64,000 nt of DNA, taken from assembly GCA_021325635.1 (NCBI GenBank), contig JAJPGV010000034.1, positions 186,745-250,744 of the forward strand, in the 5' to 3' direction. This DNA is from Chloroflexota bacterium. Its GTDB lineage: Bacteria; Chloroflexota; JAJPGV01. Below, one piece after another: positions 1,331-61,544 of this stretch (its first letter is position 1; the number at the start of each line of letters is the position of its first letter). The position numbers were made by a program, and so were the translations under genes. The notes under the pieces are model-generated. The model was not told the origin of the DNA, ran no database searches, and was given only the letters and a program-made list of their open reading frames with translations.

Positions 1331-1864
1331 ATGATCCCGGAACACCCTCGACCAGACGGATCGCGCCCAGAACCCGGTGCGCCTCTTCCGCCAGAACTGG
1401 CGAGCTTTCTGGTAGCCCAAGAGTTCACGTGTTTGCTTGAGCGCACTAACCTCGGTGCGAGCTACATCATCAAAGCGCCCACGCACGAGATAGAACGTGC
1501 CCGTGGGCGCCTGCTCATTCATTTCATGCACGAGCTGCACCGACAACCAACGGCTCCCGTGATCAGAACGGTTTTAAGCCTCATCGATAGGCCAGATTCG
1601 TCTCTTCGGCTGGAAACCTTTAGCAATCTCGATGACCCGGATCAACGGGCGAATTTGGAGGCTCTGCGGGCCCAGAACGAGGTGTTTCTACTCTTTTACG
1701 ACGAGGGTCTAGCCCATCGTCTGACAAAGCGGGTACCGCGGCGATACCCGCAGCTTCTCACTCGCTTGCTCACTCAGGCCACCGTCCACCGAGCAACCAT
1801 CCCTGATGCGGTCTTCGACTTTGATAGGGCCAAGGCGGAGGTAATCAATGCCACCAGCCTATGA
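1331..1864 (+). CDS. Hypothetical protein, coupled to the SSB-like gene
   Basis: A 177-residue protein with a Pro-rich start and a helical, charged body ('NLEALRAQNEVFLLFYDEG', 'RRYPQLLTRLLTQATVHR'). No signal peptide or membrane segment. The TGA stop overlaps the ATG of the next gene (ATGA at 1861-1864), so the two are probably translated together. The partner has an OB-fold, so a role in handling DNA is possible, but that is inference. Family not recognised. Confidence 0.65.
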   Translation: MIPEHPRPDGSRPEPGAPLPPELASFLVAQEFTCLLERTNLGASYIIKAPTHEIERARGRLLIHFMHELHRQPTAPVIRTVLSLIDRPDSSLRLETFSNLDDPDQRANLEALRAQNEVFLLFYDEGLAHRLTKRVPRRYPQLLTRLLTQATVHRATIPDAVFDFDRAKAEVINATSL

Positions 1865-2652
1865 AGGAAGGCGAACCTCAGCCTCTGCCTGAGCCTATTC
1901 CAATTGATAAGGCGCGTAAACGTCGAGGTCCAAAGCGCGGCAAGGAGCGCTGGGACATTGATCTTTTGGCTTTCCACCTCAAGACCCAGCCTGTCCCAGT
2001 CCAAGATCCTGAGCTTGGCGCGGGCAGCCGGCTCGTGATGGGTCTGGGTAATCCTCCGGTAACTGCCCTCGAGCTGTTTCCTGAGAAGTCAGCCGCCAGA
2101 GTCTTTTGCCAAGGGCTTCGCATTGAGGTCAGCCAGATAGCGCCAGTGCTCCCGGATGCCGAGGTGCCCTCAGATGAGGAAAGCATCTCGCTTATCAATC
2201 GCACCAACGGTAATGACCTGCGCCTTGGCTTCAGCGCGCAAGGCGACGTGAGCCTATTCATAGCGCCGCATCAGGCGCTTGAGGCGGAACCGTCGACGAG
2301 AGCGCTTCCGTCTTCAGGCGATGAAGAAACTGCGGAGCAGTCTCGCGAAAAGGAGGGCCAGACTCGGGTTGCCATCCAAGGTCGGCTCGGCGCCGACCCG
2401 ACTTTTCGCACGTCCGCAAAGGGGACGCTCATCGCTCGCTTTCCTCTAGCGGAACGCCAAGAGGAAGCGACGCTCTGGCACCAAGTCCTTGCGTTCGGCA
2501 CGCTTGCCGAACAGCACCGCGAAGCGCTCAAAAAGGGCCAGAGCATTGAGGTCATCGGATACCTGCACGAGCGACCGGCCAAGAATAAGCCCGACAGAAT
2601 GGTTCAGGAGATCTACGCTGCGCTCATCAGAACGCAGCGCTCCGACCGATAG
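1861..2652 (+). CDS. Protein with C-terminal OB-fold/SSB-like domain
   Basis: A 263-residue protein. Residues about 168-257 look like a single-stranded-DNA-binding (SSB, PriB-like) OB-fold: a 'VAIQGRLGADPTFRTSAKGT' strand pair, then 'LWHQVLAFGTLAEQ' and 'GQSIEVIGYLHER', which follow the SSB pattern of an 'N/Q-G-R-L..DP..R' start and a 'G..I.V.G.L' core. The first 20 residues are Pro-rich, a basic stretch (about 18-30) follows, and residues 31-140 form an unrecognised domain. No acidic SSB tail is present. Unlike housekeeping SSB (about 150-180 residues, OB-fold first), this is a larger fusion, as found on mobile elements. The start overlaps the upstream stop. Confidence 0.75.
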   Translation: MKEGEPQPLPEPIPIDKARKRRGPKRGKERWDIDLLAFHLKTQPVPVQDPELGAGSRLVMGLGNPPVTALELFPEKSAARVFCQGLRIEVSQIAPVLPDAEVPSDEESISLINRTNGNDLRLGFSAQGDVSLFIAPHQALEAEPSTRALPSSGDEETAEQSREKEGQTRVAIQGRLGADPTFRTSAKGTLIARFPLAERQEEATLWHQVLAFGTLAEQHREALKKGQSIEVIGYLHERPAKNKPDRMVQEIYAALIRTQRSDR

Positions 2653-2691
2653 GTCATCCGCACGAAGTGCGCTCCCTATGCCGCAAGGGAA

Positions 2692-2911
2692 GGAGGGTTC
2701 AAGGGGGGAATTCCCGCCGCGGCCGGCCCCCGCTTGCGGGGGATGCCCCTCTCGCCGACTGATCACATTTCTTCCACTACAAATTTGAAGGCGAGAGGGG
2801 CAGGGGGAGTCAGCGGCAAAACGCAGTTTAGGGAACGCAGAGACCGGTGGCGCTGACTCCCCCTGCCTTGGCATCCTCTGAGCGAAGGCGAGGTTCTTCC
2901 CCCCTTGCTCC
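2692..2911. repeat. Nested multi-arm inverted-repeat element
   Basis: Several perfect inverted repeats nest inside each other. An outer pair of 11 bp joins 2700-2710 (CAAGGGGGGAA) with 2897-2907. A middle pair GGATGCC/GGCATCC joins 2741-2747 with 2870-2876. Two long inner hairpins follow: 12 bp at 2745-2756 with 2790-2801, and 17 bp at 2799-2815 with 2851-2867. A CCCCCGC/GCGGGGG hairpin sits at 2727-2742. The loop of the second arm holds ACGCAG twice (2821, 2835). It lies between the convergent genes ending at 2652 and 3026. The size is beyond a simple bidirectional terminator. Confidence 0.7.
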
Positions 2912-3025
2912 AATCGTCCGGTTACGGACCAGTCCACTGCTCGAGGAGTTTCTATCCTCATTGAGGCTGTGGCTGACAGTAGAGCTTCCACTAGAGCCTC
3001 GATTTCTAGCCGAGACTCTAGTCCC

Positions 3026-3670
3026 CTAGCCGGGCACGATTTGTGTTCGAGTAGGGCCGTTGTCCAGTTCAGACCGAGATATGGAGTCTCGTCCACTGGG
3101 CGATGGGTCGGCTGCCGGTGTAGGCTGTTCAACAGCCACATTGGTTTGCGGGGAGTTTCTCAGGCCCGTTGGCACCGAGGCCACGCTAACGATGAGCGAT
3201 AGAGCGGCGATAAAAAGGATGACTTTCTGAATGTTTCGATTCTGACGGTCCATCTTGCGGAGCCGATCGTGCTCAAGGTGCCATCCGGGCGAAAGGTGCT
3301 GAAGCCAGGGTGTCCAACTCTTGCAGCGGCGATTCTTCCTTATGACCTTGGCTGCCGCGTCGCATTGCTTCGAGTTTCCCCACGTTTGATCGCCGGAATG
3401 GTCGCTCGCGGCAACCTCTTCGTCGATTGGGTAGGCACTGATGTAACAGGTTGGCCAAGCATTGTATTTGTTGTAGTCGAGCTTGAAAAGATTGCCCTGC
3501 TGTCTATTAAAGAGAGTTGCGCGCTCGATATCCCAGAAACGCTCCGGATGGTCGAAATCCATTCCCATCTTGCCCAGAAAGCCGCAGTTGATGCACCGTC
3601 CGGTGCCCTCTTTAGCCATAAACCGGGAGTAGCTCGAGTCAGGAAATAGCCCACCCAAATCAGGAAGCAT
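3026..3670 (-). CDS. Hypothetical zinc-site membrane-anchored protein
   Basis: A 214-residue protein. A 'CINCGFLG' knuckle at residues about 27-34 and a later Cys suggest metal binding. One hydrophobic helix ('VILFIAALSLIVSVASV', about 149-165) follows a basic stretch, and a Pro/Ser-rich tail ends the protein, so it is probably a single-pass membrane protein with the zinc-like domain inside the cell. I chose the minus strand over shorter frames on the other strand because its composition is natural and it has the knuckle. It may share the leftward direction of the ATPase cluster. Function unknown. Confidence 0.6.
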   Translation of the reverse strand: MLPDLGGLFPDSSYSRFMAKEGTGRCINCGFLGKMGMDFDHPERFWDIERATLFNRQQGNLFKLDYNKYNAWPTCYISAYPIDEEVAASDHSGDQTWGNSKQCDAAAKVIRKNRRCKSWTPWLQHLSPGWHLEHDRLRKMDRQNRNIQKVILFIAALSLIVSVASVPTGLRNSPQTNVAVEQPTPAADPSPSGRDSISRSELDNGPTRTQIVPG

Positions 3671-4086: not shown

Positions 4087-4112
4087 CCTATTTATAGGGA
4101 GGGAGGCTTCGA

Positions 4113-4177
4113 GGCCTACTTCCCTCTTTGCCTCTTAGGGAGGCCTATCTCCCCTATTTCCCTACTTCCCTACTTGA
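4113..4177. repeat. Octamer array copy A (intergenic)
   Basis: Read on the minus strand this is a run of 8-base units of the type RTAGGGAA/AGAGGGAA with a central inverted AGGCCTCCCT block. It begins inside the stop codon of the 61-residue gene. It matches positions 4659-4718 closely (the same GGCCTACTTCCCTCTTT start and TTTCCCTACTTCCCT end). The units resemble iterons or partition sites more than a CRISPR array: there are no unique spacers. Confidence 0.7.
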
Positions 4178-4355
4178 GCTGATTGATGAACGGCCGCAGG
4201 TCACCGGCATACTCGGGCAGGGACAGCCCTGACTCAGCTAGCAGTTCGGCAAGGTCGAGATAGTGGTGGGCGCAGAGCGGTATCGGCACGGCACCTGCAA
4301 CGAGCGCGTAGGAGCTGGGACAGCCAGGAACGCGGCAGCGCTCGCTTAGTTCCAA
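4170..4355 (-). CDS. Small zinc-finger-like protein
   Basis: A 61-residue protein with Cys and His spaced as C-x4-C (residues 7-12, 'CRVPGC') and 'LCAHH' (about 28-32), a likely single zinc site, followed by an acidic helix and 'YAGDLRPFINQLK'. No membrane segment. It is the third leftward gene after the ATPase and its coupled partner, 70 bases beyond that partner, so it is probably in the same transcript. Its stop codon forms the first bases of octamer array A. Function unknown; a DNA- or protein-binding adaptor is possible. Confidence 0.6.
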   Translation of the reverse strand: MELSERCRVPGCPSSYALVAGAVPIPLCAHHYLDLAELLAESGLSLPEYAGDLRPFINQLK

Positions 4356-4425
4356 CAGAATTCCCCTTCGTAATTAGCGGCCGGGGGCGATTGTAAGGTA
4401 AAAGCAAGCGGTTGTCAGGGGTGAG

Positions 4426-4929
4426 CTATTGATTGACCTTTTTCTGCCTCACTCGCGTCACAAGCTCGCTTTTGTCGCCGCGGTGGTTGTAATCGTCCAA
4501 CAGAAATCCCAAGCCGCAGCGAGCCAGATCGTTTTTGGTCGCCTTTAGGCCGTGAACTCGACGAAGATCCAGCTTCAAATCATCCATCGCTTCAAACTCC
4601 TCGTCCGTAAACAGGAAGCTGTCTTTGCGGGCGGGCTTATCACTTAGATTGAAAAGTTGGCCTACTTCCCTCTTTCCCTCTAGGGAGGCCTCTTTCCCTA
4701 TTTCCCTACTTCCCTCTTTCCCTATTTGTAGGGAATCCTGATTCGCTGGTTTCTGAGCTTGGCCGGCTGAGCTCTCTTTGACCGGCGTTGCAGCATCAAG
4801 CTTGGGCGCGGGTTCCGGCTTAGCGGCAACTGAAGTAGGGGAGCTGAAGAGCTGCTGATCGAGTGGGCGAGTGGGACTGTCCACTTGGTCGCTGAGCTTA
4901 AGGCCGCTGAACGGACTGTTGTCAGCCAT
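4426..4929 (-). CDS. ATPase partner with array-encoded linker; possible DNA-binding C-terminus
   Basis: A 167-residue protein. Residues 1-100 are a disordered Pro/Ala/Ser/Lys-rich stretch, and about 72-92 are encoded directly by octamer array B, giving repeated 'IGKE..REIGKE' blocks. Residues about 100-160 ('FLFTDEEFEAMDDLKLDLRR', then 'KATKNDLARCGLGFLLDDY') look like a compact helical domain of the kind seen in small partition or ribbon-helix-helix proteins. The start ATG overlaps the TAA of the ATPase (TAATG), so translation is coupled. By position it is the natural partner of the ATPase; DNA binding is inferred only. Confidence 0.65.
   Translation of the reverse strand: MADNSPFSGLKLSDQVDSPTRPLDQQLFSSPTSVAAKPEPAPKLDAATPVKESSAGQAQKPANQDSLQIGKEGSREIGKEASLEGKREVGQLFNLSDKPARKDSFLFTDEEFEAMDDLKLDLRRVHGLKATKNDLARCGLGFLLDDYNHRGDKSELVTRVRQKKVNQ
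4659..4735. repeat. Octamer array copy B, inside a coding sequence
   Basis: On the minus strand it holds about seven 8-base units (ATAGGGAA, AGAGGGAA, GTAGGGAA and so on) with one inverted GGCCTCCCT block. It matches array A (4113-4177) but lies wholly within the coding frame 4426-4929, which stays open through it. Confidence 0.75.
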
Positions 4930-5774
4930 TAGGCAGCCTCCTTGCGGCTAAGGTTGGCCCTGCGGTCTGAAACGGCCTGATTTACATACTCGCCGCTGAT
5001 TTTGGGGCTGTTGGCGTAATAGGCGAGAAGAAGCGAATTATCGGCCAGAATATTGGCCTCACGGGGCATTCCAGCCGACTGCTCGAAGATGACTGCGACT
5101 GCGTCGTCTGTGAATGGATGTTGGCGTCCGCCGGAGGCAACTTCCCAACGGAAGCGAATCATCGCTCGCAACTCCTCAAGCGAGAGGTGCTCAAGGGTTG
5201 AGGCCATGACCACTCGGGAGCGGAAGTTATCTTGGCGCGGCCGCGCCAAAGTGTTTCGAAGCTCGTCCTGGGCAAACAGCACCAGCTGCAAAAGCTTGGT
5301 GTCGTTTGTTTCGTAGTTGATGAGCTGGCGAAGCAGCTCAAGAAGAGGGGGCCGAAGCGTCTGAGCCTCATCAATGATCAGGACCACGGTCTTGCCCTGC
5401 TGGAGGGCCTGCTCAATAAGAAAGCCTTTGAAGATGTCGAGCATGCCCTTGAAGCTCTTGTCTGTTCGAGTCGTGCCAAACTCCTGCGCGATCGTGCGAA
5501 GCAGGCTGTTTGGCGTGGGGTAGCTTGGGTTGGTCAGCAGAACCGAGACAATGCCCTGGTCCAGGAATTTTTGGTGGAGGAGTCGAGCCAAAGACGACTT
5601 GCCTGTGCCGGTATCGCCGAAGACAACCGAAAGGCCCTTCTTGGCGCCGACGACATAGGCCGTCTTTTCAAGCGCTGTCGAATGAACTGAGGTCAGAAAA
5701 AAGTAGCGCGGAGAGGGGACCGTCGAAAACGGTTCTTCTTTGAGGCCAAAGAACTTTAGGTACGGCAAGTCCAT
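4929..5774 (-). CDS. ExeA/TniB-like AAA+ ATPase
   Basis: A 281-residue AAA+ ATPase. Starting from ATG 5774, the N-terminus 'MDLPYLKFFGLKEEPF' matches the 'F-G-L-x-E-x-P-F' opening of the ExeA/GspA/TniB family. Walker A 'GDTGTGKSS' is at about 53-61 and Walker B 'VVLIIDEAQ' at about 129-137, followed by a sensor region and an Arg-rich lid ('RFRWEVASGG', 'GMPREANILAD'). A TTG at 5789 is also in frame but lies inside an inverted repeat of the leader, so I prefer 5774. In this family ATPases serve secretion or transposition (TniB, TnsC-like). No transposase or secretin is nearby, so a DNA partition or recruitment role with the coupled gene is the alternative. Confidence 0.85.
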   Translation of the reverse strand: MDLPYLKFFGLKEEPFSTVPSPRYFFLTSVHSTALEKTAYVVGAKKGLSVVFGDTGTGKSSLARLLHQKFLDQGIVSVLLTNPSYPTPNSLLRTIAQEFGTTRTDKSFKGMLDIFKGFLIEQALQQGKTVVLIIDEAQTLRPPLLELLRQLINYETNDTKLLQLVLFAQDELRNTLARPRQDNFRSRVVMASTLEHLSLEELRAMIRFRWEVASGGRQHPFTDDAVAVIFEQSAGMPREANILADNSLLLAYYANSPKISGEYVNQAVSDRRANLSRKEAA

Positions 5775-5786
5775 GGTGGCGGCTCT

Positions 5787-5867
5787 CAACTTGCTCCAAC
5801 TTGACGCTCCCCAGGAGCAAGTTGCGCCTAACTTCGATTATATGCCGCCCGATTGCTATTATGTCAA
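5787..5867 (-). promoter_or_regulatory. Promoter and repeated operator of the ATPase cluster
   Basis: On the minus strand TTGACA (5862-5867) and TATAAT (5837-5842) are 19 bases apart. Downstream, CAACTTGCTCC at 5814-5824 on the minus strand is repeated in inverted form at 5787-5797, with a third imperfect copy between. Three half-sites between the transcript start and the start codon suggest a repressor operator. Confidence 0.7.
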
Positions 5868-7716: not shown

Positions 7717-8055
7717 TGACGGGCGCTTCAGGAGGGGCTTGGCTGGACACGGTGTGAGCGCAGCGAGCACGGTGTGGAGGATCTGGCGACATGATGGCGA
7801 GGCCATGATGGAGGCAGCTTCAAAAAGCGCCCGTTCAGCCTCAGCGACTCAGTCTCAGCTTAGCCACTCGCTAAATGGTCAACAGGCCTGACTAGAGGTT
7901 GCAGGCGCCGAGAAGGTTGCCGCGTTTCTTGAGCGTCTTGGGATCAACAGCGATTGCTTGCGGAACAACGCAGAGTAGGTGACGAGGCCGCGTCGTGACT
8001 GTCGGGGCATTCCCCGGCGAGCATCAGGCTGCACGTGAGCACGCGTGGCTTTAGC
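7717..8055. other. No gene seen; short direct repeats
   Basis: About 340 bases without a supported gene. CACGGTGTG occurs twice about 20 bases apart near 7748-7775, and CATGATGG with GAGG occurs twice near 7790-7815. These could be binding sites. Confidence 0.35.
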
Positions 8056-8454
8056 TCAGCGAAATAGTATCTCCATTGTTAATGCCGCCACGCCGGTAGC
8101 CTGATCCATTCTTGCCGTCCTCTCGGCGTGCTCCTTAACGAAGAAGGCCCAATCGTCCCCATGGAAGAGCTGGTTTCTGTAGTCAGCAAAATCGCGAATC
8201 TGCTGGTATTCAATTGGCGAGACCACCCCTCGCTCGAGCAGGAATCGCAGCCGCTTTCCGAACGTACCGAACTTGGGCGTCCTCACAAGCGACTGAAACG
8301 CCCCGTCCGAGTGAAACAGCGCATTTTCCCTCGCCAGAAGCTGGTTAAGGTTGAACTCGACCTGCGACCAGGCGAGGAGCATGAGGTCAGCAAATTGCTC
8401 CTCTCTCCGAAAGCGCTCAAGGGTGCTTTCACCTGGCGGAGGCTGCACTTTCAA
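8056..8454 (-). CDS. HEPN-like protein
   Basis: A 132-residue all-helical protein. 'DYRNQLFHGDDW' gives the R-x4-H motif (R93, N94, H98) in the middle of a helix, the mark of HEPN-fold RNases and toxins, and an acidic/aromatic helix pair comes before it ('LMLLAWSQVEFNLNQLL'). Starts at TTG 8454 with a weak ribosome site. It follows the membrane-protein gene by 26 bases on the same strand, so the two are one transcript. HEPN proteins often act in toxin-antitoxin or abortive-infection systems. The assignment rests on the motif and helix pattern only. Confidence 0.55.
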   Translation of the reverse strand: MKVQPPPGESTLERFRREEQFADLMLLAWSQVEFNLNQLLARENALFHSDGAFQSLVRTPKFGTFGKRLRFLLERGVVSPIEYQQIRDFADYRNQLFHGDDWAFFVKEHAERTARMDQATGVAALTMEILFR

Positions 8455-8480
8455 GCTTCTCGATGGTCCGGCGATACTAA

Positions 8481-9212
8481 CTAAGCTGTCTTGACGCCAG
8501 CCACGTCCGACAAGAGAACAGTCTCGGTCGCTGGGCCGTTAGGGTCCTTATATGTCAGCCCAGTTATTGGCTGATAATCGCCACCCTTGACCTTGATTTG
8601 CAGGTTGCCATCGGCAATCAGATCCTGTAACAGTGCATCAGATGCTTGGCTCAGTATTGGCATTTGCTTGAGCTGCTCTTTTACGGAGTCGGCCAGAGCA
8701 TTCGACACTTTGTCCGCTAGTCCTGAGGCAACCGAGTCGACCACCTTCAGGTCCTTGCTCAGGCTCAGGAATGTCACAGCAACCTGCGCCCGTGCCTGGT
8801 AAAGTGCGACGGTCCCGGTCGCCCGACCACGCACATCACTGCTCACCATAATGGCGATGGCAATTGCCATGGCCGCAAGCAGCGTGGCTGCACCTCCTAC
8901 CATGGCAATCCGAACATTGTCCGACTGTCCGCCCCAGATACCTTGCACAGCCGCTGTAAAGCTAGCCGCCGTGATTACAGTACCGAGCCCGGCAGCCCAC
9001 CATTTGGCCAGCGCTGTCGCCCCTGCTTCGATAATGGCCACGCTTTGGGGCGGCCCAGTGAAGGGTGGAAGGGAACCATTCGGCTTGTCCGCATCGTCGC
9101 TCTTTGGCAGAAGACTAAGTTGCTGTAGCAGTGTCTGAACCGGGCCAGAAAGATCGGCTCCGTCAGCTTTCTCAGGATAGGCCGGAAACTGCACCGTTGA
9201 CACGTCAGACAT
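8481..9212 (-). CDS. Membrane protein, partner of the HEPN-like gene
   Basis: A 243-residue protein. Residues 1-55 are soluble and Pro-rich; two hydrophobic helices follow at about 60-95 ('AKWWAAGLGTVITAASFTAA') and about 102-124 ('AMVGGAATLLAAMAIAIAIM'). A soluble C-terminal domain has a long helical part ('VDSVASGLADKVSNALADSV') and ends in strands. No signal peptide. GGAGGAATTA stands just before ATG 9212. First gene of a two-gene leftward unit with the HEPN-like protein. Family unknown. Confidence 0.65.
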   Translation of the reverse strand: MSDVSTVQFPAYPEKADGADLSGPVQTLLQQLSLLPKSDDADKPNGSLPPFTGPPQSVAIIEAGATALAKWWAAGLGTVITAASFTAAVQGIWGGQSDNVRIAMVGGAATLLAAMAIAIAIMVSSDVRGRATGTVALYQARAQVAVTFLSLSKDLKVVDSVASGLADKVSNALADSVKEQLKQMPILSQASDALLQDLIADGNLQIKVKGGDYQPITGLTYKDPNGPATETVLLSDVAGVKTA

Positions 9213-9482
9213 TAATTCCTCCGTCCACGAAACAATCGATCATTGGGTGAAGCGCAGCTAGGTCGCTTCAAGTAGCACATCATACACGCCGCCAGGTCGG
9301 TGTCAAGTGATTTCGCGTTCGGCTAGCAACAAGGCGGCTAATGCTTACGAAGCAGCACACTTCGCCCTTGCTTTTTGGCTAGTCCCGCCGTAAGCTAGCG
9401 AGCGCTCGTCGAGTTTGGGGATAAGACGGGACAACGAGTTCGCAGCCCGAGAACACTTGGGTTGGGCGGAGGGTTGTTCTGC

Positions 9483-9761
9483 ATGCTTGTCTCCGACGAC
9501 AGTGGATTGCCAACAGCTCAAGGAAACACCCAAAGAGTCGGTCCCAACGGAGCTCGCGGGCGATCGAGTGATCTCTCTGCCACTCAGCACAAGGTCCTTC
9601 AACTGGTCGCGGATGGAGCCTCGGATCTGGAGATCGCGCACCAGTTACGGATGACGCACCGGGGCGTGCGCTATCACATCGCCAAACTGTTCCGATTATC
9701 GGGCGTTCAGAGTCGCGTCAGGCTTATAAATCGAGCCCGACTCCTTGGCTGGATTCCGTGA
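9483..9761 (+). CDS. Small LuxR-type DNA-binding protein
   Basis: A 92-residue protein whose last 60 residues are a GerE/LuxR helix-turn-helix: 'LSATQHKVLQLVADGASDLE', then 'IAHQLRMTHRGVRYHIAKLF' as the recognition part, and a tail ending 'LLGWIP'. No receiver or ligand-binding domain is attached, so it may be a stand-alone regulator. ATG 9483 follows a GGCGGAGGG site; an upstream TTG at 9462 is in frame but less likely. A GTGTCA/TGACAC dyad follows the gene. Confidence 0.75.
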   Translation: MLVSDDSGLPTAQGNTQRVGPNGARGRSSDLSATQHKVLQLVADGASDLEIAHQLRMTHRGVRYHIAKLFRLSGVQSRVRLINRARLLGWIP

Positions 9762-9771
9762 GGGAAAAAGT

Positions 9772-9787
9772 GTGTCATTTTTGACAC
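9772..9787. promoter_or_regulatory. Dyad GTGTCA-TTTT-TGACAC
   Basis: A perfect 6-bp inverted repeat with a TTTT loop begins 10 bases after the stop of the LuxR-type gene. It could be an operator for that protein in front of the 10013 gene set or a weak terminator. Confidence 0.4.
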
Positions 9788-10012
9788 TTCCCAAACGGCG
9801 ACTGCTTGCCCTAGCATGAGGCTCGACTTAGCCTAGCCTTCTTCTCTGACGCTGTCGCTCTTTCAAGAAAGGCACGGACGGGCAGTCGATATCTGACGCG
9901 CACGCGTTCCAGAGGTGATGTGAACTGCCGGGCTCCTGCGTCCGAGCGGATCCCTCAGCACCGCCCGGCTCGCGCCGCCGAAGCAGGCTTGGGAATTTGA
10001 AAGTAGGAAGAT

Positions 10013-10243
10013 ATGACGGCGAAGACAGACACCCTTGAACACCAGTCCAGCAACGGGACTGAGCCACCAGCGCCACCGGTACAGCTTCCTCCGCTCAACA
10101 TCACGGGAATGGTGGTGGCCAAGGCTGACCTGATAGCTTCGCTTCGCATCTGGGTACCCCAGCTCACCGATATTGCCCCATTAGGGGATGACCGGTTCAT
10201 TCTGACGGTTGGCCCCATGCAACAAATGGAAGGAGAACACTGA
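10013..10243 (+). CDS. Small hypothetical protein upstream of tail-fibre-like gene
   Basis: A 76-residue protein: a Pro/Thr/Glu-rich first third, then a compact part ('LNITGMVVAKADLIASLRIW', 'GDDRFILTVGPMQQMEGEH'). AGGAAG stands before its ATG. Its TGA overlaps the next ATG (TGATG), so it is coupled to the tail-fibre-like gene. Family unknown. Confidence 0.6.
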   Translation: MTAKTDTLEHQSSNGTEPPAPPVQLPPLNITGMVVAKADLIASLRIWVPQLTDIAPLGDDRFILTVGPMQQMEGEH

Positions 10244-14440: not shown

Positions 14441-15418
14441 CTATAGGCTGGTTTTGTCCATGAGCTTCTTGGCGTTTTGCCGGCCCATGTGGACGTAAAT
14501 CTGAGTCGTGTTCAAGTTGGTATGCCCAAGCCATTGCTGAAGCTGAAAAGGGCTGACGCCTTGCTCGGCTTTGTAGGTGGCGAACGTATGCCGCAGCGAG
14601 TGGCAGCTCACCTTCTTGGTGATACCTGCCTCACGCCGATACTTGACCACAAGCTTGCGCACTCCTCGCTCGCTGATAGCCACGCCGTAGCGGTTGACGA
14701 AGAGGTGATCGTCTGAGCTGGGAGGACGGACCAGCAAATAGCTTTTGATTGCGGCGATCGCCTTCCTCTCGAGTTCGACGTCGCGGGCAGCCATACCCTT
14801 ACCAGAGCGGACTCGAATGCTCTGGTTCTCAAGATCGGCGTCGTCGAGCCGGAGCTGACAAAGCTCGCTGACCCGCACTCCTGTTTGCAGGAACACCTGC
14901 AAGATGCAGTAGTCGCGGGCGCTTGCGCCAGCCAGTGAGAGCATCCTGTTGTACTCATCAGGCTGAAGATAAGTCCGCACCTTTCGCTCCTTCCGCGGGG
15001 TCTCCACGCCAGCGGTCGGCGATTTCGTGATGCCGCCGGCGTCCTCCACAAATCGGAAGTACTCGCGCAATGCCGCCAGTTTGCGAGCCCGGCTCACGCC
15101 GCTCACTCCGCTGCGCGCTAGATGCGTCAAGTACTCGTTTACGTCAGCGCGTTCAACGTCGGACGGAGTCTCGGCCAAGAGGTTGTTGTTGTGGAGCCAT
15201 TTCAAGAACTGCTGTAAGTCTGTGCGGTAGGCACCCATCGTGGTTGGTGCGCGATTCTTACCCTCCAGCTCAGCTAGAAACGAGCAAAGGCTTTCCTCCA
15301 AGGAGCTGGGCTGCGTTGTGGACCCGTGTCTTCGGGGAGGCGCTTCGCCACGTAGGCCGTTGGCGTCATGAGGCGAAGCTTTAGGCTGTGCAGTCGAAAT
15401 ATCGTGTTGTTGGCCCAT
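14441..15418 (-). CDS. Tyrosine recombinase 1 (XerC/D-like)
   Basis: A 325-residue site-specific recombinase. After a variable 35-residue start comes the SAM-like core-binding domain (about 40-130: 'LCSFLAELEGKNRAPTTMGA'), then the catalytic domain with the complete set: R182 ('TGVRVSELCQL'), K207 ('RSGKGM'), H273-x2-R276 ('CHSLRHTF'), H299 ('LGHTN') and nucleophile Y308 ('TTQIYVH'). It cuts and joins short inverted sites through a phosphotyrosine link. Its upstream region (15.48-15.60 kb) holds several inverted repeats that could be its sites. Intact and probably active. Confidence 0.92.
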   Translation of the reverse strand: MGQQHDISTAQPKASPHDANGLRGEAPPRRHGSTTQPSSLEESLCSFLAELEGKNRAPTTMGAYRTDLQQFLKWLHNNNLLAETPSDVERADVNEYLTHLARSGVSGVSRARKLAALREYFRFVEDAGGITKSPTAGVETPRKERKVRTYLQPDEYNRMLSLAGASARDYCILQVFLQTGVRVSELCQLRLDDADLENQSIRVRSGKGMAARDVELERKAIAAIKSYLLVRPPSSDDHLFVNRYGVAISERGVRKLVVKYRREAGITKKVSCHSLRHTFATYKAEQGVSPFQLQQWLGHTNLNTTQIYVHMGRQNAKKLMDKTSL

Positions 15419-24496: not shown

Positions 24497-25531
24497 CTAG
24501 CCCGAGTGCCGGTCTCTCGGCTTGGCTGTATGCGTCTTGCGAATCCCGAGCTGATCAATCGGCGAGTAGCCGCGGGCCCGTTTCAGCTTCTCGCTCTGAG
24601 CCGCATGAACGTACCGTTCCGTCACCTTAGATGACGTGTGCCCCATATAGTGCTGCAGCGTGATGGTCGGCATGTCGTTCTCTTGGGCACGAATGCCGTA
24701 GGTATGACGCAGGAGGTGCGGGTGTAGCCGCCGAATACCGGTACGTGTCCGGGCGCGCACGAAGACCATCTCGAGCGCCTTCTTGGATAACGGATAGCCG
24801 TCAGGCGATAAGAAGAACTCGCCGAAGTTGGGATTGGCCGGTTGAGGCCGGAAAAAGGTCACGTATTTCCTGAGCACCCGCTCGGTCGTGTAGCCAAACG
24901 GCACCGAGCGCTCCTTGCGACCTTTGCCCATGACCAGCAGAAAGCCGTTATCCAGGTCCAGGTTGGCGTCCTGCAGGTGAATGACTTCGGATAGGCGCAA
25001 TCCGGTATCCAGCATCAGCAGGCAGATGGCCTTTATACGGCAGTCGGCGGCGTTGTTGTCGTCATAGCTGCCGATGAGCTGGCGCTCTTCATCTTCGGTC
25101 AGTGGCATAAGCTGCTTCTCTTCGATCTTGGGCAGCCGCAGGGTGTAGAGCATGTGCGTGGGCGTGTACTGCTCCCGACCCAGCCAGCCGGCGAAGGTCT
25201 TGAGCGTTCGGACGTACTGCTGCAGGGTGCTACCCGAAATGTGCTTATCGGCTGCTGGAGCGACGAAAGGATGCCCGTCCCATTTCGGACGCTCCATAAC
25301 GTCCGCCAAAAACAGGCGGACGTGAGACACGGTGAAGTGCGCCAGAACCGGAGTCGTCCCGTACGACGCCTCGAGCCACTCATGGAATTTGGCGAGAACA
25401 TAGGCGTAGACCTCAATGGTCTTCGGCGACTTGTTCTCCCCCTTCAAGCTGGCCTCATAGAGGCGCAGATAGCCTCGCAACGGCAAGCTGGCGTGGGACG
25501 GTGCGGCGGGAATGATCTCGACTGGGGACAT
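24497..25531 (-). CDS. Tyrosine recombinase 2 (integrase)
   Basis: A 344-residue recombinase from ATG 25531. Core-binding domain at about 18-125 ('GYLRLYEASLKGENKSPKTI'), catalytic domain with R179 ('TGLRLSEVIHL'), K203 ('MGKGRKE'), H272-x2-R275 ('HLLRHTYG'), H298 ('MGHTSS') and Y307 ('TERYVH'): a complete set. The frame is open back to a TTG at 25636, but an intrinsic terminator overlaps that start, so 25531 is preferred. It lies between a tRNA-Gly 5' half and a direct repeat and is the likely integrase of the island or of a nested element. Confidence 0.92.
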   Translation of the reverse strand: MSPVEIIPAAPSHASLPLRGYLRLYEASLKGENKSPKTIEVYAYVLAKFHEWLEASYGTTPVLAHFTVSHVRLFLADVMERPKWDGHPFVAPAADKHISGSTLQQYVRTLKTFAGWLGREQYTPTHMLYTLRLPKIEEKQLMPLTEDEERQLIGSYDDNNAADCRIKAICLLMLDTGLRLSEVIHLQDANLDLDNGFLLVMGKGRKERSVPFGYTTERVLRKYVTFFRPQPANPNFGEFFLSPDGYPLSKKALEMVFVRARTRTGIRRLHPHLLRHTYGIRAQENDMPTITLQHYMGHTSSKVTERYVHAAQSEKLKRARGYSPIDQLGIRKTHTAKPRDRHSG

Positions 25532-25633
25532 AGCTACAGTAGCCGCTCTCTTTCTTTCCCAGTCAAGCCCTGCGTGTCCGTCGCGTGACGGTTTCGTGAA
25601 GGCACGGTGACGGAAAGCAGGGTAACGGCCTAC

Positions 25634-25661
25634 CAAAAATCCGCCCTCGAAAGGACGGATT
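25634..25661 (-). terminator. Intrinsic terminator after the tRNA-Gly 5' half
   Basis: On the minus strand AATCCGTCCT-TTCG-AGGGCGGATT is followed by TTT. It would stop transcripts coming from the tRNA promoter before the recombinase gene. Confidence 0.75.
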
Positions 25662-25673
25662 CACGCTCAAAAG

Positions 25674-25726
25674 AGAGTGTCTGCTTGAGGAGCCTCAGTG
25701 GTGCTTACTTGGGAAGCAGACACTCT
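25674..25726. repeat. Attachment-like inverted repeat in the broken tRNA
   Basis: AGAGTGTCTGCTT (25674-25686) and its exact inverse (25714-25726) flank 27 bases. The right copy is tRNA sequence. Inside, on the minus strand, TGCTT-CCCAAGT-AAGCA gives 5-bp arms around a 7-base centre covering the anticodon loop, the usual geometry of a tyrosine-recombinase crossover. Confidence 0.6.
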
Positions 25727-25746
25727 GCCAACTGAGTTACACCCGC
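25708..25746 (-). tRNA. 5' half of tRNA-Gly(CCC), split at the anticodon loop
   Basis: Reading leftward: acceptor GCGGGTG, TA, a D-arm ACTC-AGTTGGCA-GAGT and an anticodon 5' strand TCTGC with loop TTCCCAA (anticodon CCC). Then the homology ends: GTAAG replaces the expected GCAGA, and no T-arm or CACCCGC follows. The gene is broken exactly in the anticodon arm at the island/core junction. I did not find the matching 3' half in the window. Confidence 0.7.
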
Positions 25747-60722: not shown

Positions 60723-61544
60723 TCAGCCTCCGAGTACGCGGAGGATTTGCTGGAGCACGGCCAGCAGCGTGCTGGGCGTACCGCCGCCGGCCGTCGTGCC
60801 ACTGCTAGGCGTTGAGGTTGGCGTAGCCGTCGCGGTCGCGGTAGCGGTAGGCGTCGAAGTTGGCGGGGTGCCTGTGGCGGTTGCCGTAGCCGTCGCCGTC
60901 GCCGTGGCGGTTGAGGTCGATGTCGCTGTCGGCGTCGCGGTTGGTGGCGTGCCCGTCGGTGTAGGAGTATCCGTGGCTAAGGGTGTAGCCGTGGCCGTCA
61001 CCACCGCCGTGGGCGTCGCGGTGGCCGTTGCTACCTCTACCACGGCTTGGCAGTGCTCGGACACATCCTCATCGTCATCACCCCGAGGACCGGTGTGCAC
61101 GTGGTTGTCGTCACCGCAGCCGAAACCAGGCCGAACGTCCTCATCTCGATCGTCGCCGCGACCCTGATCGTCCCCCGCGCCACGGACCTTGATCTGGAAA
61201 CGTGGCCTATCATCCCGATCCCCCGGGGCAAAAATGATGCCGGGTCCCGGCGTATTGGTGGCCACGGGCGTGACAGCCGGGACCGGGGTGTTGGTGGCCG
61301 TTACCACGAGGACCGCGTTCGAGGTTCGGTCCCCGTTTCGAAAGCCGTCCGATTTCGATGCGTCGTCGCGTCCGCGGCTGCTCGAGGCGCTGGCCGCCGA
61401 TCGACCGCGATCACCACCGCCGTGGTCGCTGGAGCCCCGGTCGCCCTGCGCGGCAGCCGAAGGCCCGGCGACCCACATCAGCAAGAGGCCGCTGGTCGCA
61501 ACCGCAACGGCCCCCTTGAGAAGGCGCGTTCTGTCATGTGCCAT
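60723..61544 (-). CDS. Secreted low-complexity Thr/Ala/Pro protein
   Basis: A 273-residue protein: signal peptide ('LLKGAVAVATSGLLLMWVAG', cleavage near 'PSAAAQG'), an Asp/Arg/Gly-rich region with Cys ('GFGCGDDNHVHTGPRGDDD'), then about 90 residues of 'TATATP'/'TPTATP' repeats with two 'GTPPT.TPTATATAT' copies. DNA of 60.80-61.05 kb is a hexamer-type repeat (GCCGTC/GCGGTC). It ends in a hydrophobic 'LLAVLQQILRVLGG'. Likely cell-wall or surface-located. ATG 61544 follows a GGAGAGG site. Confidence 0.6.
   Translation of the reverse strand: MAHDRTRLLKGAVAVATSGLLLMWVAGPSAAAQGDRGSSDHGGGDRGRSAASASSSRGRDDASKSDGFRNGDRTSNAVLVVTATNTPVPAVTPVATNTPGPGIIFAPGDRDDRPRFQIKVRGAGDDQGRGDDRDEDVRPGFGCGDDNHVHTGPRGDDDEDVSEHCQAVVEVATATATPTAVVTATATPLATDTPTPTGTPPTATPTATSTSTATATATATATATGTPPTSTPTATATATATPTSTPSSGTTAGGGTPSTLLAVLQQILRVLGG

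Follow-up and report, generated by a model that had tools for sequence, protein, structure and literature searches.

A putative DNA-partition cassette with an AAA+ ATPase in the place of ParA on an integrated element of a Chloroflexota bacterium

The NTPases that drive DNA partition are classed as deviant Walker ParA, actin-like and tubulin-like proteins (PMC13245405). Among described systems, those of type Ib, ParF-ParG-parH of TP228 and delta-omega-parS of pSM19035, resemble the module considered here in having an ATPase gene followed by that of a small protein with a flexible N-terminal tail. Their centromeres consist of short direct and inverted repeats, which are 7-bp heptads in the case of omega and spaced tetramer boxes in that of ParG (PMC9499535, PMC7308502, PMC5016525). 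There are differences. The type Ib motor is a deviant Walker ATPase of the ParA family, whereas that of the module is an AAA+ ATPase of the AAA_22 family; the type Ib centromere lies upstream, whereas the arrays of the module lie inside and downstream of the partner gene; and the C-terminal ribbon-helix-helix domain of the type Ib binders is, in the module, a predicted one. In ParABS systems with a helix-turn-helix (HTH) ParB the motor is ParA. The ATPase family of the module precedes genuine ParB genes (TIGR00180) in relatives, but the ATPase of these loci is not a ParA.

Two other groups of proteins are close to the ATPase. Profile search puts the transposition regulators MuB, TnsC and IstB in the broad AAA+ branch to which the ATPase belongs, but the module has no neighboring transposase and its ATPase falls in a clade separate from that of the transposon helpers. 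The ExeA/GspA and XrtA-associated ATPases (TIGR03015) are the closest family in sequence, with 36-39% identity, but the ATPase scores below the cut-off of that family and its partner is a candidate protein of the centromere-binding type.

Compared with type I partition as it is defined, the module has the expected gene order, in which the ATPase gene is followed at once by that of the partner (joined by a TAATG overlap here, and present at 18 of 19 related loci), and it has repeat arrays near the operon that make a candidate centromere. However, the ATPase has no ParA-family Pfam match, and its Walker A motif, GDTGTGKS, lacks the KGG of ParA. The module is therefore not a type I member as defined, although its layout works like type Ib. 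A full-text literature search, with most subscription journals outside its scope, found no paper that describes an ExeA/AAA+ protein as a partition motor. Our preferred reading, to which we give somewhat better than even credence, is that the module serves an element of ~39 kb as a cassette of the DNA-partition type, with an AAA+ ATPase from the ExeA/GspA-Cdc6-TnsC-MuB branch in place of ParA and with the arrays as the centromere that the partner binds.

Genes and octamer arrays of the module

The ATPase, the proposed motor in the ParA position, is encoded on the minus strand at positions 4929-5789 of the window, the 64-kb stretch of DNA that was analyzed as a whole. Its start is likely either TTG at 5789 or ATG at 5774, giving 286 or 281 amino acids. 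The protein matches Pfam AAA_22 (E 3.9e-24) and has the motifs common to its relatives, Walker A GDTGTGKS, Walker B LIIDEAQ and GxPR. The initial annotation called it ExeA/TniB-like; the first half of that label stands, as the protein is closer to the ExeA/GspA-type AAA+ ATPases, while TniB is imprecise. Searched as a profile against solved structures, it matched Cdc6/Orc1, TnsC and MuB. The predicted structure was of moderate quality (pTM 0.43), and a fold search with it gave only generic AAA+ proteins (ORC, RuvB, TnsC) at low TM-score. A perfect 11-bp inverted repeat (CAACTTGCTCC / GGAGCAAGTTG) is found at the start of the ATPase gene (5787-5824) and is a possible operator or leader hairpin.

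The partner, the proposed centromere-binding protein, is encoded at 4426-4929, also on the minus strand. Its start overlaps the ATPase stop by one base, as TAATG, in agreement with the translational coupling that had been noticed before. Its assignment is based on this overlap and on the homology of its C-terminal domain to proteins encoded behind ParA. The 167 residues appear to comprise an N-terminal tail, a disordered linker and, from about residue 100 to 167, a C-terminal domain of ribbon-helix-helix-like character; the protein matched none of the Pfam and NCBIfam models. In an alignment of the partner family a strand is followed by two helices, as is typical of ribbon-helix-helix proteins, which suggests this fold for the C-terminal domain. 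The compact C-terminal domain described earlier is ribbon-helix-helix-like by its sequence; the structure prediction that had been proposed for the partner, run on the protein alone, gave a poor model (pLDDT 51), and a fold search with this model gave no significant match. Profile comparison with solved structures found a weak match to 5ytp (E 0.0078). The top match of the domain profile to a solved structure, a polyphenol oxidase over 36 residues, was rejected as chance. Profile comparison of the domain with omega, to which no sequence homology was detectable, and with the CopG-type antitoxin of the window itself was uninformative.

Two arrays of octamers accompany these genes and are proposed as the two parts of a centromere. 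One is inside the partner gene at 4659-4735 (repeats at about 4661-4732), in the region coding for the linker, where it encodes residues ~67-90; the other is downstream of the gene at 4113-4177 (about 4115-4175). Both have a period of 8 bp. The unit, given initially as of RTAGGGAA type, is RKAGGGAA and reads on the minus strand in both arrays. In each, a run of direct octamers is followed by one inverted octamer (AGGCCTCCCTA) and then by more direct octamers. When the whole window was scanned for 8-bp periodicity, the two arrays ranked as the top two stretches. Between 2001 and 7000 there are 10 copies of RKAGGGAA; 1000 dinucleotide shuffles gave 0.7 on average and never more than 5. The arrays align to each other with a score of 46.5, against a maximum of 23.5 in 2000 shuffles, so the two are duplicates, as their earlier description as related arrays implied. 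Within the whole 4.64-Mb genome, the tandem octamer pair is found at these arrays only. An ORF of 61 amino acids at 4170-4355, with the Cys/His spacing of a small zinc-binding protein, ends at the edge of the downstream array.

The integrated element

The module is carried by an integrated element of ~39 kb, which has identical 39-bp att direct repeats at its two ends and covers the first 25.7 kb of the window. The right repeat lies at 25708-25746; the left repeat, at C50:173428, overlaps a tRNA-Gly(ccc) gene (L015 6643-6717, minus strand). The G+C content is 54-60% inside the element and 62-68% outside it. A tyrosine integrase gene (24497-25636, minus strand; Pfam Phage_integrase, E 8.1e-32) adjoins the right repeat. 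A second tyrosine recombinase, at 14441-15418, may be a resolvase like XerC or what is left of a second insertion. Other genes of the element encode a single-strand-binding protein (1861-2652, plus strand; Pfam SSB, E 1.3e-11), a Replic_Relax protein (~6 kb upstream of the arrays), a TrwB/TraG-like coupling ATPase and a CopG/BrnT-type toxin-antitoxin pair. Elsewhere in the window, a 30-bp tandem repeat lies in a Val/Ala-rich ORF at 60874-60943.

The statement that no standard ParA is present holds for the 427-kb contig of the window, on which no ParA-family gene (PF13614, E <= 1e-8) was found; there are seven PF13614 matches on other contigs of the same genome (G000). An HTH_36 Rep gene (PF13730) was likewise sought on the contig of the window, with no match.

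Relatives of the partner and of the ATPase

Relatives of the partner were found by a single-sequence search of genomes of the same phylum and then by a profile search of 400 of these. The 400 genomes contain eight strong members of the partner-domain family, and all of them lie directly behind either ParA or an ATPase of the module's type. ParA precedes the members in G276, G006, G157 and G228; the ATPase precedes that of the window and those on three contigs of G127 (C35, C14 and C13), on which no ParA (PF13614) was found. A weak ninth match (G287:C5) adjoins a ParA, and a homologue on plasmid pSR118 of Salinibacter ruber is located behind ParA and ahead of iterons and a replication gene. In five other genomes or plasmids, then, the gene that follows ParA encodes a small protein homologous to the C-terminal domain. 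S(I/L)xGKGxxLFF is an N-terminal motif common to the ParA-paired partners of the Chloroflexota type; the ATPase-paired partners do not have it. As the N-terminal tail of ParG contacts and stimulates its ParA-type motor (PMC7308502), the missing motif is consistent with a changed motor. Nothing was found by scans of viral contigs with the ATPase and the partner, by a tblastn search of phages with the partner, or by one of plasmids with the partners from G127 and G276.

Arrays were also found near these relatives. G127 has the same layout of an in-gene and a downstream array, but with a different octamer around TGACGTCA (ACGTCATG arrays); such a change is as expected if a binding protein and its site change together. 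In G157 and G228, the homologues paired with ParA likewise have 8-bp arrays, both within the linker-coding region and around the operon. Taken with G127, this makes the linker-embedded array a trait of the binding-protein family under either ATPase, and it suggests that the module combines a partner and a site of the kind seen in ParA systems with a different ATPase. At two ParA-paired loci (L053, 6835-7968 with its flanks, and L049, 7180-8870) the arrays are of AAGCATGC or GCTAGC type, with a unit of 8 bp, and are positioned upstream of parA, within the linker of the binding-protein gene and downstream. Repeats of 7 bp near the ATPase pair of G143 and G371 were considered as centromeres and rejected, since they resemble generic short intergenic repeats.

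For the ATPase, 19 related loci in the phylum were examined, one of them on a Leptolinea plasmid. In 18 of the 19 the next gene downstream encodes a partner of DNA-binding type, the sole locus without one being on contig C556 of G409. This gene encodes a ParB at 11 loci (G052, G287 and nine in G406-G409, which are the remaining genomes sampled from the order of G287), a member of the partner family at four, and short proteins of ribbon-helix-helix-like sequence without a family match at three (G143, G371 and Leptolinea). The eight ParBs that were run against NCBIfam all match TIGR00180 (E 5e-28 to 4e-39), and the remaining three (L074, L080 and L081) are near-copies of these. With partner homologues behind ParA and the ATPase ahead of ParB elsewhere, sequence comparison supports the segregation-system layout suggested at the outset. 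The partition-type ATPases group together in a tree, with 2 label changes where shuffles gave 7.8; GspA proteins of Omnitrophota and Chlamydiae fall among them without being resolved.

At many loci the pair is followed by a Rep-like gene encoding a winged-helix or DnaA_N protein, and a ParA system is present as well at some. In G287 and at five loci of G406-G409, a ParA-ParB pair adjoins the ATPase-ParB pair, and the Leptolinea plasmid has both a ParA system and the ATPase; the ATPase is thus not a simple replacement for ParA everywhere. Three of the loci (L079 3607-9005, L080 3864-9352 and L081 5331-10906) have ParA, ParB, the AAA+ ATPase, a second ParB and HTH_36 genes on one strand, a chromosomal-looking five-gene cluster kept in three genomes of one genus. 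On the Leptolinea plasmid (L019), a Soj/RHH-like pair with ~25/50-bp repeats is found at 2321-3506, and an ATPase/RHH-like pair followed by a DnaA_N protein at 7959-10069.

A proposed partition role and its alternatives

The partition reading is built on the gene order, the arrays, the homologues that the partner has behind ParA and the linkage of the ATPase family to ParB and RHH-type genes. From these we infer a segregation function for the module; the ribbon-helix-helix fold, binding, nucleoid association and motion are predicted parts of it. Dimers of the partner would occupy adjacent 8-bp repeats by means of the ribbon-helix-helix-like C-terminal domain, and their flexible N-terminal tails would contact the ATPase. 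MuB binds DNA non-specifically, forms ATP-dependent filaments and is regulated by a partner (PMC7350765). Like MuB and TnsC, the ATPase in its ATP form might bind DNA non-specifically, here that of the nucleoid, and the complex of partner and array would stimulate ATP hydrolysis and free the ATPase. The outcome could be a ParA-like ratcheting or a tethering, by which copies of the excised element would be spread before division. The carrier element, which is integrated, would need such maintenance once excised.

The main rival, which we regard as unlikely but worth serious attention, is a role in replication initiation or helicase loading, in which the partner would bind origin iterons and the Orc1/Cdc6-TnsC-like ATPase would serve a Rep-like winged-helix protein as initiator or loader. 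It is raised by the Rep-like genes that follow many of the pairs (HTH_36 or DnaA_N at G127 C35, L078-L081 and Leptolinea) and by the ParA-ParB pairs beside several ATPase-ParB pairs, and the place of the ATPase in the Cdc6/Orc1-TnsC branch agrees with it. However, a par-then-rep order is also usual in plain ParA systems such as Salinibacter pSR118, the partner families otherwise pair with ParA, no HTH_36 gene was found on the contig of the window, and the orc1/cdc6 model TIGR02928 gives the ATPase 27.9 bits against a cut-off of 181.3. The coexistence with ParA-ParB in G287 and G406-G409, together with the seven PF13614 matches on other contigs of G000, would also suit an accessory factor, that is, an ATPase that acts on the centromere-binding protein or its operon as a loader, remodeler or regulator, with movement of the DNA left to a ParA encoded at another locus. 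This role ranks after replication loading and seems to us rather improbable: the ATPase occupies the exact place of ParA in the operon, neither the element of the window nor the G127 contigs yielded a ParA, and the N-terminal motif of Chloroflexota ParA-paired partners is absent from the partner of the window.

Two roles known for relatives of the ATPase are much less probable. The nearest relatives by identity include secretion ATPases, and TIGR03015 matches with E 9.8e-56, though at 189.1 bits it stays under the curated cut-off of 324.5. Outside the 19-locus set, relatives adjoin secretion genes (L010-L014 and L082), GspD and GspB among them, or exopolysaccharide/XrtA genes (L083 and L084). 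An ExeA/XrtA-type ATPase of secretion or exopolysaccharide synthesis would make the pairing and the arrays coincidental, which we doubt strongly, given arrays far above chance and a DNA-binding-type partner at 18 of 19 related loci; no secretin, GspB or exosortase gene is adjacent in the window, as such genes are at L010-L014, L082 and L084. Least probable of all is a TniB/IstB/TnsC-like transposition helper with the partner as a targeting protein. TnsC and MuB were among the solved structures matched, and distant relatives are helpers of IS481/DDE transposases (with transposases at L085), but these helpers form a separate clade (support 100/99) and the neighborhood search of the ATPase/partner pair found no transposase beside any of the 18 pairs, contrary to what a constant association with transposition would give. 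Assignment of the ATPase to the transposition helpers, to XrtA or to the Orc1/Cdc6 family thus failed on adjacency and clade or on score cut-offs.

If the partition reading is true, an AAA+ motor in the ParA slot would constitute a new type of partition. We see about an even chance for the wider proposition that AAA+ ATPases of the Cdc6-TnsC-MuB branch are a fourth class of partition motor, which displaced ParA ahead of two unrelated kinds of binder, HTH ParB and RHH-like proteins, with centromere arrays within the linker-coding part of the gene. The diffusion-ratchet ideas put forward for ParA and MuB (PMC2950902, PMC7350765) suggest that a ParA-like ratchet could be made from an unrelated ATPase that binds DNA non-specifically, and the module, if it acts as proposed, would make this testable. 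As related bacteria carry the same exchange of the ATPase for ParA, they may have a way of distributing DNA to daughter cells that has not been described.
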